Part shown: positions 5,573 to 12,013 of the stretch, in pieces
Position numbering within the stretch: position 1 is the stretch's first letter
Layout of the letters: each line of letters starts with the position of its first letter
DNA from: Alteromonadales bacterium alter-6D02
Lineage (GTDB): Bacteria; Pseudomonadota; Gammaproteobacteria; Enterobacterales; Psychrobiaceae
Direction: 5' to 3'
DNA length: 64,000 nucleotides
Assembly (NCBI GenBank): GCA_002835545.1
Contig: PIZK01000008.1
Coordinates: forward strand, 1-64,000
The notes under the pieces: generated by a model
The model's database searches: none
What the model was told of the DNA's origin: nothing
What the model saw: only the letters and a program-made list of their open reading frames with translations
Position numbers and translations under genes: made by a program

Positions 5573-6955
5573 GTGACAAGACAAGCTCAAGCAAAGATTC
5601 AGTGGGATCAAGCTTTAATCGAGAAGTATAATTATAGTGGGCCGCGCTATACCTCTTACCCAACAGCGTTGGAGTTCGATGAGTCTTTTGGTGAGTCTGA
5701 CTTGGTTAATGCGGTTGCTGATAGTGACAGCGACCGTTTATCGCTATATATCCATATCCCATTTTGTCATATGCTCTGTTATTACTGTGGTTGTAATAAG
5801 ATTATTACTCGTCATTCGCATAAAGCTGATCAATACCTTGAATATCTAGCGGCTGAAATTAAACAACGAGCGGGATTATTTAAGCATCAAACGGTCACCC
5901 AAATGCATTGGGGCGGTGGAACACCGACATTCTTAACTAAACAACAAATTTCTCAACTCGTTGCGTTATTAAAAGAACAATTTAACTTTGCTGAAGAAGG
6001 GGAGTTCTCGATTGAGATTGACCCGCGCGAGATAGAGCTTGATACGCTAGATCATCTACGTGCAGAAGGTTTTAATCGGATTAGCCTTGGGGTACAGGAC
6101 TTTAATAAAGAGGTTCAAAAAGCGGTAAACCGAGAACAGTCTGAAGAGTTTATCTTTGCAATGATCGAACGTGCTCGTGAACTAGGTTTTGTTTCAACCA
6201 GTATTGACCTTATTTATGGCCTACCTCATCAAACGACAGAGTCGTTCGCTCATACGATTGAGCGTGTGATTGAATTATCACCGGACCGACTATCAGTATT
6301 TAATTATGCGCATTTACCTAATGTGTTTGCTGCGCAGCGTAAGTTAAAAGAACAGGACATGCCGGCACCGCGTGAAAAATTACAAATTTTAGAAAATACG
6401 ATTAATCAACTCGTTGATGCGGGCTATCAATATATCGGGATGGATCATTTCGCTAAACCTGACGATGAACTAGCTCAGCTGCAAAATAACGGTAAGTTAC
6501 ATCGCAACTTCCAAGGCTATACCACGCAAGAAGAGTGTGATCTATTGGGGTTAGGCGTTTCATCCATTAGTCAGATCGGCCACTGTTATGCGCAAAACCA
6601 AAAAGATATAAAACAATATTACGCAGCGATTGACGCTGAGACGAGTCCGTTGTGGAAAGGGGTTAATCTAAACGAAGATGACTTTATTCGTCGTAAAGTC
6701 ATTAAACAACTAATTTGCCATTTTGAGCTTGATTTTGGTGCAATTGAAGCACAATGGGATCTTAACTTTGAACAGTACTTCGAAGAGGATCTTAAGTTAC
6801 TTCAAGTGTTTATTGATGATGAGTTGGTTAAATATGATGACCGTTCATTATCGGTCACCCCAAAAGGTGAGCTATTGATTCGTAATATCTGTATGTGTTT
6901 TGATATTTATTTGCGCGATCGCGCGCGTCAGCAACAATTCTCTCGAGTGATTTAA
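5573..6955 (+). CDS. hemN: Oxygen-independent coproporphyrinogen III oxidase
   Basis: HemN converts coproporphyrinogen III to protoporphyrinogen IX without oxygen, a late heme step in the cytoplasm. The radical SAM cluster motif CHMLCYYCGC is present early, followed by GGGTPT and the C-terminal HemN domain. The N-terminus (KYNYSGPRYTSYPTALEF) aligns closely with the E. coli enzyme as I recall it, and the length (460 aa) is normal. I start at the GTG at 5573 because AGGTGA lies 4 bases before it. An in-frame ATG at 5558 would add five residues but has no ribosome site. A candidate FNR box lies upstream and an intrinsic terminator follows. Confidence 0.95.
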   Translation: MTRQAQAKIQWDQALIEKYNYSGPRYTSYPTALEFDESFGESDLVNAVADSDSDRLSLYIHIPFCHMLCYYCGCNKIITRHSHKADQYLEYLAAEIKQRAGLFKHQTVTQMHWGGGTPTFLTKQQISQLVALLKEQFNFAEEGEFSIEIDPREIELDTLDHLRAEGFNRISLGVQDFNKEVQKAVNREQSEEFIFAMIERARELGFVSTSIDLIYGLPHQTTESFAHTIERVIELSPDRLSVFNYAHLPNVFAAQRKLKEQDMPAPREKLQILENTINQLVDAGYQYIGMDHFAKPDDELAQLQNNGKLHRNFQGYTTQEECDLLGLGVSSISQIGHCYAQNQKDIKQYYAAIDAETSPLWKGVNLNEDDFIRRKVIKQLICHFELDFGAIEAQWDLNFEQYFEEDLKLLQVFIDDELVKYDDRSLSVTPKGELLIRNICMCFDIYLRDRARQQQFSRVI

Positions 6956-7184: not shown

Positions 7185-7814
7185 ATGGAATTTTTAATGA
7201 TTATCGTCATGCTTATCGCCTTATTTACCCTTGGCGGTTGGTGGTTGGTCGCTGTAAGACGATCCCATTTTTTAGTAAGCTTTGAGTTTCCAAGCTCGAT
7301 CAAGAAAAAAATAGCCACACAGTACCCCCACTTAAGTAATGATGATATTGAATTAGTGTTAGAGACATTACGTTGCTATTTTCAATTAGTGGCGAAAGCT
7401 AAATACAAAGCGTTAGCGATGCCATCCCAAGTCGTTGATGTTGCGTGGCATGAGTTTATTTTATTCACTAAAAGCTATCAGCTATTTTGTAAAAAAGGCT
7501 TTGGACGCTTTATACATCATACCCCTACTGAAGCAATGTCATCACCAACCGTTGCACAGGAAAGTATTAAGCGGGTATGGCGTTTGGCCTGTATACAAGA
7601 AAATATCAACCCGAAGTCCCCAGAACGTTTACCTGCGTTATTCGCTATTGATCAGCAATTAAAAATAAAAGATGGCTTCTTTTATCAGAAAGATTGTAAA
7701 TCTAATCAACGTGACAATTACTGTGCGACCCATATTGGCTGCGCGTCAGGCTGTAGTGGTTCATCTGCTGACAATGAGAGTAGCTGTAGTGGCGGATGTG
7801 GCGGTGGTGATTAG
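7185..7814 (+). CDS. GRDP-like (glycine-rich domain) protein with Cys/Gly tail
   Basis: A 209-residue protein with one N-terminal membrane span (about 3-24) and a domain resembling the glycine-rich-domain-containing protein family (Pfam GRDP-like). The diagnostic stretch is VVDVAWHEFILFTKSYQLFC near residues 83-102. The last 30 residues are rich in Cys, Ser and Gly, ending CSGGCGGGD, with at least six cysteines after the spacer, which suggests metal binding or disulfides. The biochemical role of the bacterial family is unknown. The gene stands alone between the hemN terminator and the sigma54 regulator (95-base gap). Start ATG at 7185 follows AAAGGATG at a workable spacing. Confidence 0.75.
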   Translation: MEFLMIIVMLIALFTLGGWWLVAVRRSHFLVSFEFPSSIKKKIATQYPHLSNDDIELVLETLRCYFQLVAKAKYKALAMPSQVVDVAWHEFILFTKSYQLFCKKGFGRFIHHTPTEAMSSPTVAQESIKRVWRLACIQENINPKSPERLPALFAIDQQLKIKDGFFYQKDCKSNQRDNYCATHIGCASGCSGSSADNESSCSGGCGGGD

Positions 7815-7877
7815 TTTGTTTGGTCTAAGTAATAACTTGTTGTTGAGACAGCATTAAAAAGACGTCACAATACAAGC

Positions 7878-7894
7878 CTCGATATTTCGTGGTT
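7878..7894 (+). promoter_or_regulatory. Activator-site-like repeat before the sigma54 regulator gene
   Basis: CTCGATATTTCGTGGTT, ending 14 bases before the regulator start. It matches the two repeats upstream of ccoG (10478-10494 and 10498-10514) at 14 of 17 positions each. Its position over or beside the likely promoter suggests autoregulation by the regulator encoded here. The binding protein is inferred. Confidence 0.55.
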
Positions 7895-7908
7895 GGATAA
7901 GTACCCTA

Positions 7909-9351
7909 ATGAGTGATGATAATATAAAGCAATACCTAGCAGACTCAGAACTATTACTTAATGCGGTAGGCGAAGGCGTTTATGGCTTCGATCGCCAAGG
8001 ACATGCTGTTTTTATTAATCCGGCAGCAGAACAAATGACGGGCTGGTCAGCACAAGAGTTGTTAGGAAAAAGCATCCATGAATATCACCATCACAGCCAT
8101 GCTGATGGTTCTTGTTATCCTGCTCATGAATGTAAAATTTATGGCACGGTGCAAGATGGTATTAGTCGTAAAGTGTCGGGGGAAGTGTTCTGGCGTAAAG
8201 ATGGTTCAAGTTTTCCGGTCGAATATACCACGACCCCCGTGTATAAAAACAATCAGCTCATTGGTGCTGTGGCTGTATTTAGGGATGTTAGTGAACAACA
8301 CGCAGCCGACCTCGCATTGCGTCAGGCCTTATCTGAAGTTAAAAAGTTAACTCAGCAATTACAAACAGAAAATACTTATCTAATTAACGAATTACAACAA
8401 CAATGGTCCGGTAAAGGACTGGTGGGAACTAGTGTTCAATTTGAACAAATGTTGATGCAACTTGAGCTGGTGGCTAAAACACAAAGTACGGTACTAATAC
8501 TGGGTGAAAATGGTACGGGTAAAGAGTTGGTTGCACGTAATATCCACCGTTTAAGTTCGCGCGCAAATAGCCCGTTGATTAAAGTTAATTGTGCCGCTTT
8601 TACCGATAATCTATTAGAGTCGGAGTTATTTGGCCACGAACGAGGCGCTTTTACTGGTGCTGTAGAGGCTCGTAAAGGGCGATTTGAAATTGCTGATAAC
8701 GGTACTATTTTTCTTGATGAAATCGGTGAGTTATCGTTAGGGGCGCAAAGTAAGTTATTGCAAGTCTTACAGGAGCAGGAGTTTGAACGAGTCGGTGGAA
8801 ATAAAACCATTAAAGTTGATATTCGTGTGATTGCAGCGACTAATCGTGATCTCGCTAAAATGGTTGATGAAGGGACTTTCAGGATGGATTTGTTTTATCG
8901 GCTAAATGTCTTTCCAATTAACCTGCCACCATTACGCGATCGCATTGAAGACTTAGAGCCTCTTTGTCAGGTCATTATCAGTAAGTTAAATGCTAAGTTA
9001 GGTAAGAAAATCACCGCAATTAGTAATAAGAGTTTACGTTTATTAAAACAGTATCACTGGCCGGGCAATATTCGCGAGTTGCAAAACATCTTAGAGCATG
9101 AAGCTATTTTAGCCACCAGCGACATATTAACGGTCCAGCATAACTTTCTAGAACACAGTGGCGTTAAAGGAGCCAGGAAGTATCAAGCTAATATGAGTTT
9201 AGCTGAAGCTGAAAAGCATCATATTACAGCCACGCTAGACGCTCACCAGTGGTTAATTGGTGGTGATAAAGGAGCGGCTAAGGCCTTAGGCGTTCCAGAA
9301 AGTACATTACGTTCGAGGATGAAAAAACTAGATATTGTTAGGCCCCAATAG
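7909..9351 (+). CDS. PAS-domain sigma54-dependent transcriptional activator
   Basis: A 480-residue enhancer-binding protein. Domains in order: a PAS sensor (about 10-125, with a His-rich loop and C69/C75), a short coiled coil (130-165), an AAA+ sigma54 module (172-400) and a Fis-type helix-turn-helix (about 450-476, [20 protein letters not shown]). Walker A is GENGTGKE (199-206), the sigma54-contacting GAFTGA is intact (246-251), and Walker B is IFLDEIG. It should therefore open sigma54 promoters. There is no receiver domain, so the signal comes through the PAS domain. Repeats matching the site just upstream of this gene occur before ccoG beside a sigma54 promoter, making ccoG the best target in the window. 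The signal is unknown. Confidence 0.92.
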
Positions 9352-9445
9352 CTAGCGAGCTCTGGTTAGAGAAATGTACCGATGATATATTTTTACGCTG
9401 CTTTTGGTTATGATGATTAACCAATGAACAAGAAATGAGATAATT

Positions 9446-9643
9446 ATGAGTGGCCAACACCGTAGTGATATTCAAACGGGTTTACTCGTGAATATCGTAT
9501 TAAAACAAGACCAACGTAGTGGCAAATTAACTCAGGGTCATGTTAAAGATTTACTAACGAATTCTTCGTTCCACCCACATGGTATAAAAGTGCGTTTAAC
9601 CTGTGGGGCTGTCGGACGCGTTAAGGAGGTACTAGCCTCGTGA
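9446..9643 (+). CDS. YwbE family protein
   Basis: A 65-residue protein of the YwbE/DUF2196 family. The sequence follows the family pattern: RSDIQTGLLVNIVLKQDQRSGKLTQG (pieces at 7-32) and a C-terminal GIKVRLTCGAVGRVKEV. Members are small basic proteins of unknown function; the fold looks like a small beta-barrel of the kind that can bind nucleic acid, which is inference. Its stop overlaps the GTG start of the DHH phosphoesterase by three bases, so the two are translationally coupled and probably work in one process. Confidence 0.85.
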   Translation: MSGQHRSDIQTGLLVNIVLKQDQRSGKLTQGHVKDLLTNSSFHPHGIKVRLTCGAVGRVKEVLAS

Positions 9644-10455
9644 GTCATTTTTGTATTTATCATAAAAACTGCAGTGATGGCTTTGGTTCTGCACTTGCCG
9701 TGCATGTCTATTGTCAGCAGCAACAGCTCCAATGTGATTATTTACCAGCGCAATACGGTGATGATGTCCCAGATGTGACAGGGAAAGATGTGCTTATTGT
9801 GGATTTCTCTTATGATCGAGAGACTTTAATCAAAATGAAGCAACAGGCTAATTCATTACTGGTTATCGATCACCACAAGAGTGCCATGGAGGCATTAAGT
9901 GGCCTCGATTACTGTATCTTTGATATGGACTATTCTGGAGCCGTATTAACGTGGCGTACGTTGCTTCCTCAGCAGCCAGTTCCTTTATTACTTAACTATA
10001 TTCAAGATCGAGACTTATGGCGCTGGCAACTTGATGAAACCAAGGCCGTATCAGCAGCTTTATTGACTATTAAGCAACAGTTCGAACTGTGGCAGCCCTA
10101 CCTTGAAGACGCGCTAGTCGTTGAGTTAATAAATAAGGGAAATGCTATTGTCGAGTATCAACAGCAGCAGTTGGCTAAATTGCCAAGTGGCGAAAACATC
10201 CCTCTGGCTGAGATTGCTGGTTATACTGTTCCATGTGTTAACTCAACGCACTTAGTCAGTGAAATGGGCGATATCCTTGCCCAAGGACACCCTTTTGCAG
10301 CGTTATATTTTGATAAGTTTGATAAGCGCATCTTTTCGTTACGTTCGGCCAAAGATGGTATTGATGTTGCTAAAATTGCACAAAAATATGGTGGAGGAGG
10401 GCACTTTCATGCTGCGGGCTTTGCTATTGCTAAAGAGCCTATCAAAATAGATTAA
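9640..10455 (+). CDS. DHH family phosphoesterase
   Basis: A 271-residue DHH/DHHA1 phosphoesterase. DHH-family features: an N-terminal SDGFGSALA motif, VDFSYD, the signature VIDHHKS (about 74-80), YIQDRDLW, and a C-terminal GGGGHFHAAGF DHHA1 motif. Such enzymes are manganese-dependent and cleave phosphodiester bonds in short oligonucleotides, cyclic dinucleotides or related molecules; the exact substrate cannot be read here. The start is GTG at 9640, chosen because a strong AAGGAGGT (9623-9630) lies at proper distance and because it overlaps the YwbE stop. Confidence 0.88.
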   Translation: MSHFCIYHKNCSDGFGSALAVHVYCQQQQLQCDYLPAQYGDDVPDVTGKDVLIVDFSYDRETLIKMKQQANSLLVIDHHKSAMEALSGLDYCIFDMDYSGAVLTWRTLLPQQPVPLLLNYIQDRDLWRWQLDETKAVSAALLTIKQQFELWQPYLEDALVVELINKGNAIVEYQQQQLAKLPSGENIPLAEIAGYTVPCVNSTHLVSEMGDILAQGHPFAALYFDKFDKRIFSLRSAKDGIDVAKIAQKYGGGGHFHAAGFAIAKEPIKID

Positions 10456-10477
10456 TCGTTAGCTCTTTTCTTGTGGC

Positions 10478-10514
10478 CGCGATATATCGTGCTTCTGCGT
10501 GATATATCGTGGTT
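10478..10514 (+). promoter_or_regulatory. Tandem activator-site-like repeats (UAS) upstream of ccoG
   Basis: Two direct repeats, CGCGATATATCGTGCTT (10478-10494) and CGTGATATATCGTGGTT (10498-10514), match at 15 of 17 positions and are spaced exactly 20 bases apart, about two helical turns. They lie 60-100 bases upstream of a sigma54 promoter, where enhancer-binding proteins usually sit. A third copy precedes the PAS-sigma54 regulator gene at 7878. Confidence 0.7.
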
Positions 10515-10575
10515 TTTTGATGTTTATATCTATTGGTTTTTAATTAAGTTATTGTTTTTTATATGTATGTACTTT

Positions 10576-10591
10576 TGGTATAGAGGTTGCT
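10576..10591 (+). promoter_or_regulatory. Sigma54 (-24/-12) promoter of ccoG
   Basis: TGGTATAGAGGTTGCT has GG at 10577-10578 and GC at 10589-10590, with exactly 10 bases between. The TGG and TTGCT blocks match the sigma54 consensus TGGCAC-N5-TTGCW. Transcription would start near 10602, 26 bases before the ccoG ATG. Confidence 0.7.
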
Positions 10592-10627: not shown

Positions 10628-12013
10628 ATGTCCGTTATCATTGACCCAAAAGATTTAATAATAGCCCCTGATAGTAATCAATCCTCCGCCATTTATGTGC
10701 GTGAGCAACAAGGAAAGTATCAACGAATTCGTCGTAATATCGCTATTGTGCTTATGACGCTGTTTGCAATATTGCCTTGGCTGACGGTTGGTGGCGAACA
10801 AGCAATATTGATCGATCTGACAGCCTTACAGCTTCATGTGTTTGGTGCGACGTTATTCCCACAAGATTTTCCAATTGTTGCTGGCTTCTTTATGGTAGCT
10901 GCGTTTGCCTTATTCTTTGTTACCACTTGGCTCGGGCGTGTATGGTGTGGCTTTTTGTGTCCACAAACTCATTGGTTGTTTATTTTTGTCTGGTTAGAAG
11001 AAAAAATAGAAGGGTCGCGTAATCAGCGAATCAAGTTAGATAAGCAAGCGATGTCTTTGGCTAAAACAACCAAGAAAACATTGAAGCACCTAAGCTGGGG
11101 AATTGTGTCATTTCTAACAGCAACAACATTTCTGACTTACTTTGTACCACCGATAACTTTATACAGTGATTTAGTGAGTTGGCAATGGAGTGGTTTAATT
11201 ACCTTCTGGGTCGCTTTTTTTGCTGTATGTACATACGGTAATGCAGGTTGGCTTAGGGAAAAGATGTGTTTACACATGTGTCCTTACGCTCGGTTCCAAT
11301 CAGTGATGTTTGATCATGACACTTACGTTGTTGCCTATGATACGCAGCGAGGAGAGTCTCGCGGCCCACGCAAGCGTAAACAAGACCCTAAAGAACTAGG
11401 GTTAGGTGATTGTATTGATTGTAATTTATGTGTTGAAGTTTGCCCTGTCGGCATAGATATCAGACATGGTTTGCAATATGAGTGTATCAGTTGTGGGGCT
11501 TGTGCTGATGCTTGTGATCAAACGATGTCTCGATTTAATTACCCAGAAAAGCTTATTAGCTTTACGAGTGAAGCTCAATTAGCTGGTGGTATTACTCATT
11601 TGTTTAGAGCGAAAATTATCGGTTATGCGATTGCATGTGTATTAATTGTTGTTGCAATGGGCGTTTATTGGGGCGCTCGTGTACCTGCAGAATTATCGGT
11701 ATTACGTGATAGAAATGTACTTTATCGAGTGAATAATGATGATTTAATTGAAAATAGTTTCCAGCTTAAAATTTTGAATAAACTGCCTTATGCTACCTCT
11801 TTTCAAGTTAGTGCCGCTGGTATTGATGGCATACACGTGAGCATTACTGAGCCGGTCATGGTTCAATCTGGTGAATTAACGTCACAAGCGCTGACGTTAA
11901 CGGCGGACCCAGAGGACATTAAGCTGAAAGTGACACCAATTACTTTAACAATCACTTCAGAAGGTCAAGAGCCAGTCATCATTACTCAAGAGTCTCGCTT
12001 CTTTAGTGAGTAG
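10628..12013 (+). CDS. ccoG: Cytochrome c oxidase accessory protein CcoG (FixG/RdxA)
   Basis: A 461-residue membrane iron-sulfur protein. CcoG helps assemble cbb3 oxidase and is reported to reduce Cu(II) to Cu(I) for the copper centre. Four or five membrane spans are visible (about 36-55, 80-105, 150-175, 185-205 and 330-350). Motifs include CGFLCPQTHWLF, CLHMCPYARFQ and a double ferredoxin pattern CIDCNLCVEVCP and CISCGACADACD. The C-terminal 110 residues form the Ig-like FixG_C domain. It stands apart from any ccoNOPQ genes in this window. Upstream lie a sigma54 promoter and tandem repeats, so expression probably depends on the PAS-sigma54 regulator at 7909. A bidirectional terminator follows. 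Confidence 0.93.
   Translation: MSVIIDPKDLIIAPDSNQSSAIYVREQQGKYQRIRRNIAIVLMTLFAILPWLTVGGEQAILIDLTALQLHVFGATLFPQDFPIVAGFFMVAAFALFFVTTWLGRVWCGFLCPQTHWLFIFVWLEEKIEGSRNQRIKLDKQAMSLAKTTKKTLKHLSWGIVSFLTATTFLTYFVPPITLYSDLVSWQWSGLITFWVAFFAVCTYGNAGWLREKMCLHMCPYARFQSVMFDHDTYVVAYDTQRGESRGPRKRKQDPKELGLGDCIDCNLCVEVCPVGIDIRHGLQYECISCGACADACDQTMSRFNYPEKLISFTSEAQLAGGITHLFRAKIIGYAIACVLIVVAMGVYWGARVPAELSVLRDRNVLYRVNNDDLIENSFQLKILNKLPYATSFQVSAAGIDGIHVSITEPVMVQSGELTSQALTLTADPEDIKLKVTPITLTITSEGQEPVIITQESRFFSE

Follow-up and report, generated by a model that had tools for sequence, protein, structure and literature searches.

A PAS-type sigma54 activator and its palindromic sites as a probable portable control module for an accessory ccoG gene

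Classical circuits built on sigma54 enhancer-binding proteins include those of NifA, NorR and PspF. CcoG, also named FixG or RdxA, is reportedly a cupric reductase. Cupric reductase activity of CcoG and an effect on copper tolerance are described in the accessible part of a review (PMC7558416). In Pseudomonas aeruginosa, mpaR shares a transcript with a CcoG gene, and the MpaR protein responds to cyanide (PMC10790758). The locus considered here lies in a 64,000-nucleotide stretch of the genome of Alteromonadales bacterium alter-6D02 (contig PIZK01000008.1, positions 1 to 64,000; hereafter, the window), where the gene of a PAS-domain sigma54 activator is followed by a ccoG gene.

It is very probable that these two genes constitute a portable, self-contained module in which the PAS activator, acting on palindromes of the consensus CRCGATATATCGYG, drives an accessory ccoG via sigma54 and limits its own gene. 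In the proposed mechanism, the enhancer-binding protein (7909-9351) would bind the CRCGATATATCGYG palindromes through its Fis-type helix-turn-helix (HTH). From the tandem pair upstream of ccoG it would activate the sigma54 promoter at 10576-10591, assisted in most relatives by bending through integration host factor (IHF) between the sites and the promoter, and from the single site over its own gene start it would limit its own synthesis. The PAS domain may sense a cytoplasmic signal, to which the cell would respond with extra CcoG beside its housekeeping CcoG.

A sequence-only reading of the window had proposed a self-contained sigma54 circuit of this kind, and the conserved sites, the sigma54 promoter and the gene order support it. 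Anatomy and conservation together give good support to the classical sigma54 design. The local circuit appears real, and its target, an accessory CcoG, is apparently undescribed: the same reading knew of no such control of ccoG, and no description was found in the literature searched, including a search by the core CGATATATCG. The part of PMC3377617 available contains nothing bearing on the circuit.

Palindromic sites, promoter and activator

Three near-identical 17-bp sites had been noticed, and they lie exactly where they were placed, at 7878-7894, 10478-10494 and 10498-10514, agreeing pairwise at 14, 14 and 15 of 17 positions. They are copies of a 14-bp palindrome whose consensus was tallied from 59 promoter sites. 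With up to 3 mismatches allowed, 5 matches occur in the window alone, where 1.76 are expected; this modest excess is reached by 2 of 100 shuffles. Scanned across the whole genome, the motif hardly stands out by number at this tolerance (123 matches against 111 for the reversed control). Only three matches are free of mismatches, the pattern having been derived from those same three sites; among the matches listed, none has 1 mismatch and 6 have 2. These 6, together with 2 from a 12-bp search, are the next-best matches checked in the genome, and all 8 fall inside mechanically called open reading frames (ORFs).

Raw counts thus barely separate the motif from its reversed control, and it is conservation and position that do so. 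Promoters of ccoG were compared in 50 of 91 loci with upstream regions less than 72% alike, after 41 redundant ones had been dropped and loci L101 and L102 excluded. The best palindrome in these promoters has a mean of 2.3 mismatches, against 5.76 in dinucleotide shuffles. Conservation across relatives excludes a chance origin of the motif. By a matrix built from the same promoters, at least one palindrome exceeds threshold in all 50 and two do so in 43. Typical positions of their centres are some 71 and 90 bp ahead of the -24 GG; the proximal centre falls at 68-73 bp in 44 of 50 promoters and the distal one at 87-92 bp in 39 of 43. In four exceptions to this spacing (62/80, 82/101, 84/102 and 85/103), both sites are displaced jointly by some 9-14 bp, which is close to one helical turn; the remaining two of the six proximal exceptions have one site only.

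The GG-N10-GC element TGGTATAGAGGTTGCT is present at the predicted place. A GG-N10-G element, found by a script that demanded the GG and the -13 G, recurs in all 50 promoters (TTGC in 37, TTGA in 8, TTGT in 5). Between sites and promoter, 35 of 50 promoters contain the IHF-like sequence WATCAANNNNTTR with no more than 1 mismatch, where 7.2 would be expected, and none of 100 shuffled sets equals this number; by hand count, 33 of 50 have their best match beginning 27-31 bp before the GG.

The activator carries an AAA+ domain (Sigma54_activat, PF00158, 242.6 bits) with the Walker A sequence GENGTGKE and, as had been read from the sequence, an intact GAFTGA motif, followed by a C-terminal Fis-type HTH (PF02954, 26.9 bits, cut-off 22). 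An AAA+ domain, a Fis-type HTH and upstream sites at a fixed distance are the features of a sigma54 enhancer-binding protein of the NtrC/NifA class. RpoN is encoded in the same genome. The Pfam matches of the activator include no receiver domain, and they include neither a GntR HTH nor an aminotransferase-like domain, so the protein is not MpaR- or MocR-like. Among the best 25 of 39 families, no cut-off of a named enhancer-binding equivalog (NifA, NorR, FhlA, PrdR and others) is reached, the closest being NorR (350 of 476) and NifA (376.5 of 528.85). Sequence searches of the PDB pointed to no ligand and returned only relatives of a general PAS and AAA+ kind. Within the PAS domain, residues H57, H60-H62 and C75 do not vary among 32 sequences, and the stretch 57-75 is found also in the distant relative at L305.

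All 50 loci have a matrix site ahead of the activator gene, at a mean score of 17.7 bits against -5.2 in mononucleotide shuffles; in 3 of these loci, the window included, at least 1 of 50 shuffles equals the observed score. The site begins 11-31 bp before the extrapolated start in 43 loci, the window among them, and 43-76 bp before it in 7; in the further loci L228-L246 the distance is 21-100 bp. In the window, 17 bp separate the 14-bp core from the ATG, and the site lies 6 bp past the -10 of a sigma70-like promoter, 5 such promoters being found in 3 kb against 8.2 expected. A role as enhancer for an intervening sigma54 promoter was ruled out in the window, where only those 17 bp are left. Because the site lies so near the ATG and follows a sigma70-like promoter, autorepression is likelier than activation.

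Table 1. Positions of the features of the activator-ccoG locus in the window
Feature	Position	Strand	Remark
Sigma70-like promoter of the activator gene, TTGAGA-N17-CACAAT	7843..7871	+	9/12 matches, weak alone
Palindromic operator before the activator gene, 14-bp core of the 17-mer; probably autorepression	7878..7891	+	matrix site in 50/50 loci
PAS - AAA+ sigma54 activator - Fis-type HTH enhancer-binding protein, 480 aa	7909..9351	+	GAFTGA and Walker A intact; orthologues
YwbE-family gene (DUF2196) between activator and ccoG; not constant	9446..9643	+	in 4/93 loci
DHH/DHHA1-type gene between activator and ccoG; not constant	9640..10455	+	in 9/93 loci
Tandem palindromes as terminator-like hairpin with T run	10475..10514	+	possible second role for the upstream transcript
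Distal putative upstream activator site	10478..10491	+	centre 92 bp upstream of the -24 GG
Proximal putative upstream activator site	10498..10511	+	centre 72 bp upstream of the -24 GG
Best IHF-like match AATTAAGTTATTG, 1 mismatch; doubtful in the window	10542..10554	+	starts 35 bp before the -24 GG
Sigma54 -24/-12 promoter TGGTATAGAGGTTGCT of ccoG (predicted)	10576..10591	+	GG-N10-G in 50/50 promoters
Accessory CcoG paralogue, 461 aa	10628..12013	+	TIGR02745, ferredoxin cysteines, C-terminal FixG_C domain

Positions 7185-7814, upstream of these features, encode a protein of 209 aa whose tail is rich in Cys and Gly; at E 0.001 it matches nothing in Pfam or NCBIfam.

Distribution of the activator-ccoG pair

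The best 80 of 299 activator relatives, found in a scan with the PAS alignment, were taken as named loci. They come from Psychrobium-like bacteria, Thalassomonas, Colwellia, Litorilituus, Thalassotalea and many Pseudoalteromonas. In all 80, ccoG lies downstream of the activator gene on the same strand, 150-1664 bp away. The same arrangement is found in all 11 further best-orthologue loci, with a CcoG-like gene at L101 that is only 35% alike, and in all 19 additional loci; 6 of the 11 are on the same contigs as named loci, and 1 of the 19 overlaps one. Absence of the motif before ccoG and the activator in close relatives, which the sequence-only reading had named as a refutation, was not observed: sites, sigma54 promoter and gene order are kept across several genera. 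Clustering of the neighbours in 93 loci returned the activator 93 times, ccoG 92 times and the next commonest neighbour 26 times. The pair is the only constant neighbourhood and therefore behaves as a portable module. The DHH gene, with or without the YwbE gene, intervenes only in loci of the Psychrobium group, the window included (three genomes are counted twice among the nine), and a few Pseudoalteromonas loci have other genes between activator and ccoG.

The module is usually accompanied by a second CcoG gene. Among 394 genomes of the order, 35 have an activator orthologue (at least 52% identity) and 359 do not; at least two CcoG genes, counted by hand with at most 4 candidates scored per genome, are present in 32 of the 35 and in 23 of the 359. 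The exceptions lacking a second CcoG are G002 (88% complete), G006 (80% complete) and G030. A two-part pattern consisting of a site, a gap of 62-92 and TGG-N8-TTGC matches 103 of the 394 genomes. With coordinates compared by hand, it lies downstream of the activator in 26 of the 35 orthologue genomes, only elsewhere in 5 and nowhere in 4. Of the 359 genomes without an orthologue, 72 are matched as well. Among all these matches, one recurrent stretch opens with GATATTTCGG and varies in the manner of coding sequence; it occurs both with and without the activator. No further recurrent target was seen among them, gene context away from the activator not having been checked.

Two records call for separate mention. 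In Pseudoalteromonas sp. H71 (L226), the ccoG beside the activator is split into two frames, as a pseudogene or through a sequencing error. Another record (L167, NZ_JAGHQT010000010.1) is labelled Endozoicomonas sp. G2_1 and is the same contig as that of G014 and L098; the name may be wrong, because its CcoG groups weakly (93/75) with Thalassotalea and G014 falls in the order of the window.

More distant relatives of the activator have other surroundings. In a class survey, 29 of 369 genomes have a match at E <= 1e-100, and these are 43-54% identical except for the window and the G014 orthologue. Many of the distant relatives have open frames of about 600-660 aa, and the one scanned, at L102, has a weak second PAS match. 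No ccoG lies within 10-12 kb in 10 of 10 such loci (L305-L314; 7 from the class survey, 3 from the order survey), and none is linked at L102, where the activator relative adjoins ExbD, MotA/ExbB and TPR genes. At L305, from another order and 53% identical, two palindromes with 0 and 1 mismatch stand 18 bp apart right after the activator gene (5626-5657), followed by a GG-N10-GA element at 5744-5760 and by membrane-protein genes, one of them MotA/ExbB-like by eye. As these palindromes precede other membrane-protein genes, the DNA site of the family seems not to be tied to CcoG alone.

Alternative readings of the sites

Several observations weigh against the proposed circuit. A single site exceeds the matrix threshold in 7 of 50 promoters, and the -12 C is replaced by A or T in 13 of 50. 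The search for the sigma54 element had no shuffle control, and the 50 promoters are not independent lineages, more than half being from Pseudoalteromonas. The IHF-like match of the window is off the usual position, with at least 4 mismatches at 27-31 bp before the GG. At L101 (G030), the CcoG-like gene is divergent and no pre-activator site is found at up to 3 mismatches; a GG-N10-GC element at 11184-11199 follows a 3-mismatch site there and lies about 450 bp before the CcoG-like ORF. Sigma70 hexamers before the activator score a mean of 8.1 in 34 loci against 7.6 in shuffles, and since these scores barely exceed the shuffles, autorepression is a matter of inference. In addition, the tandem pair in the window can fold into a hairpin of 18 pairs that, with the T run behind it, resembles a terminator.

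This hairpin raises the question of whether the tandem palindromes are the intrinsic terminator of the upstream gene and not activator sites. The sites follow the stop codon of the activator gene in most relatives, and at least 5 T occur in the 8 bases past the proximal site in 21 of 50 promoters, as a terminator would have it. The T run is absent from the other 29, however, and the spacing to the sigma54 GG is fixed or shifted by about a helical turn. Moreover, all 50 loci carry the same palindrome ahead of the activator gene, for the most part a short way before the start codon, a position in which a terminator is hard to explain. A terminator in place of activator sites is accordingly rated very improbable; as activator sites, the tandem palindromes may also serve to terminate the upstream DHH transcript. 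A different owner of the palindrome, such as a dimeric repressor encoded elsewhere, with the activator using other sites, is very improbable. Palindromes are typical of many regulators, and binding by the activator is here a prediction, but the motif moves with the activator through varying neighbourhoods, and the remaining best matches in the window genome lie inside ORFs. In G001 (82% complete), a genome without the activator, a 12-bp match occurs on each of two contigs, with no paired sites, and the distant activator relative at L305 has its own two palindromes after the gene.

If the activator binds at its own gene, the sign of regulation is to be judged. Positive autoregulation through the pre-activator site has a precedent in the MpaR-CcoG operon of P. 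aeruginosa, an analogous system for which positive feedback is proposed in the portion of the report available (PMC10790758), and the 7 loci with a site start 43-76 bp before the extrapolated start, as well as L228-L246, would leave more room for it. With the 11-31 bp found in the other 43 loci, the window included, the site is too close for a downstream sigma54 promoter. Positive control is considered rather unlikely, and autorepression is preferred.

The accessory CcoG and comparison with described systems

The product of 10628-12013 is identified as a CcoG by its TIGR02745 score of 515 bits (cut-off 316.7); it has a FixG_C domain and the ferredoxin cysteines. It is an accessory paralogue. 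A second ccoG lies on contig C36 and its product is 53% identical, the only ccoN match over the cut-off is on contig C20, and the neighbours of the window gene are unrelated to cco genes. Membership in a cbb3 cluster (ccoGHIS) was considered for the window gene and rejected on these grounds; the C36 ccoG is likewise not adjacent to cco genes. The target had been described as a copper-handling gene of the cbb3 oxidase, whereas it is an accessory paralogue outside the cco cluster. No palindrome at up to 2 mismatches is present in the stretches with the other ccoG or with ccoNOP (L138, L139). Judged by its family, the accessory CcoG is probably a membrane [4Fe-4S] cupric reductase. In a 40-row tree, 10 housekeeping CcoGs fall on one side of a branch (95/90), and in a 61-row tree the housekeeping side is separated at 99/96 with the window CcoG outside it. 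Fourteen sigma54-linked CcoGs form one group in the latter tree (96/97), and those of L099 and L100 are nearer to MocR-linked ones (82/83); the broken CcoG of L226, in pieces of less than 280 aa, is not included.

A second kind of private regulator is found where the activator is lacking. Among the 23 orthologue-less order genomes with at least two CcoG genes, loci of the second ccoG were fetched for 13 (L345-L357), and in all 13 a MocR-like gene adjoins it. Seven of the MocR-like proteins were scanned: their best NCBIfam match is PdxR, at 230-284 bits and below the cut-off of 320, and Pfam finds both GntR and aminotransferase domains in 6; in L353, where the start may have been called short, it finds only the aminotransferase. 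The remaining 6 genes match the scanned ones by tblastn. Nine of the 13 MocR-linked CcoGs lie outside the housekeeping side of the tree and 4 inside. The MocR label requires at least 3 changes (gains or losses) on the CcoG tree, with which repeated capture of the regulator would fit.

An extra CcoG with two unrelated kinds of private regulator points to an inducible role beyond routine cbb3 assembly. A tentative extension, itself unlikely as it stands, is that the accessory CcoG could be an arm of heme-copper respiration that is induced separately for protection or repair, under interchangeable local sensors, either the PAS-sigma54 activator (in the window, Colwelliaceae and Pseudoalteromonas) or a MocR-like factor of the pyridoxal phosphate type, both answering the same stress. 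If so, the first candidate stresses would be copper imbalance and poisoning of the oxidase by cyanide or a related compound. The module itself offers a compact and testable regulon of one sensor, one palindrome and two promoters. It provides the PAS-type activator of Psychrobium, Colwelliaceae and Pseudoalteromonas with a likely target and DNA site, and it concerns the control of CcoG-family (copper reductase) genes outside cco operons, about which little is known.

The circuits of NifA, NorR and PspF share with the window system an AAA+ protein with GAFTGA and a Fis-type HTH, tandem upstream sites, a -24/-12 promoter and a local target, as well as an IHF-like site (in most relatives) and a probable autoregulatory site. 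The window system differs from them in its target, the accessory CcoG, and in an activator that stays below every NCBIfam equivalog cut-off among the best 25 of 39. Its CcoG resembles CcoG/FixG/RdxA in scoring over the TIGR02745 cut-off and in its ferredoxin cysteines and FixG_C domain, and differs in lying outside the cco cluster and the housekeeping side of the tree and in having a sigma54-type promoter of its own. The nearest parallel in control is MpaR with the CcoG orthologue PA14_10540, as far as described in the accessible part of PMC10790758. MpaR combines GntR and aminotransferase-like domains and is tied to cyanide and ccoN4, whereas the window has a PAS sigma54 activator, a different palindrome and no adjacent ccoN. 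Both systems have an adjacent dedicated regulator, a palindromic motif and autoregulation, which in the window is inferred.

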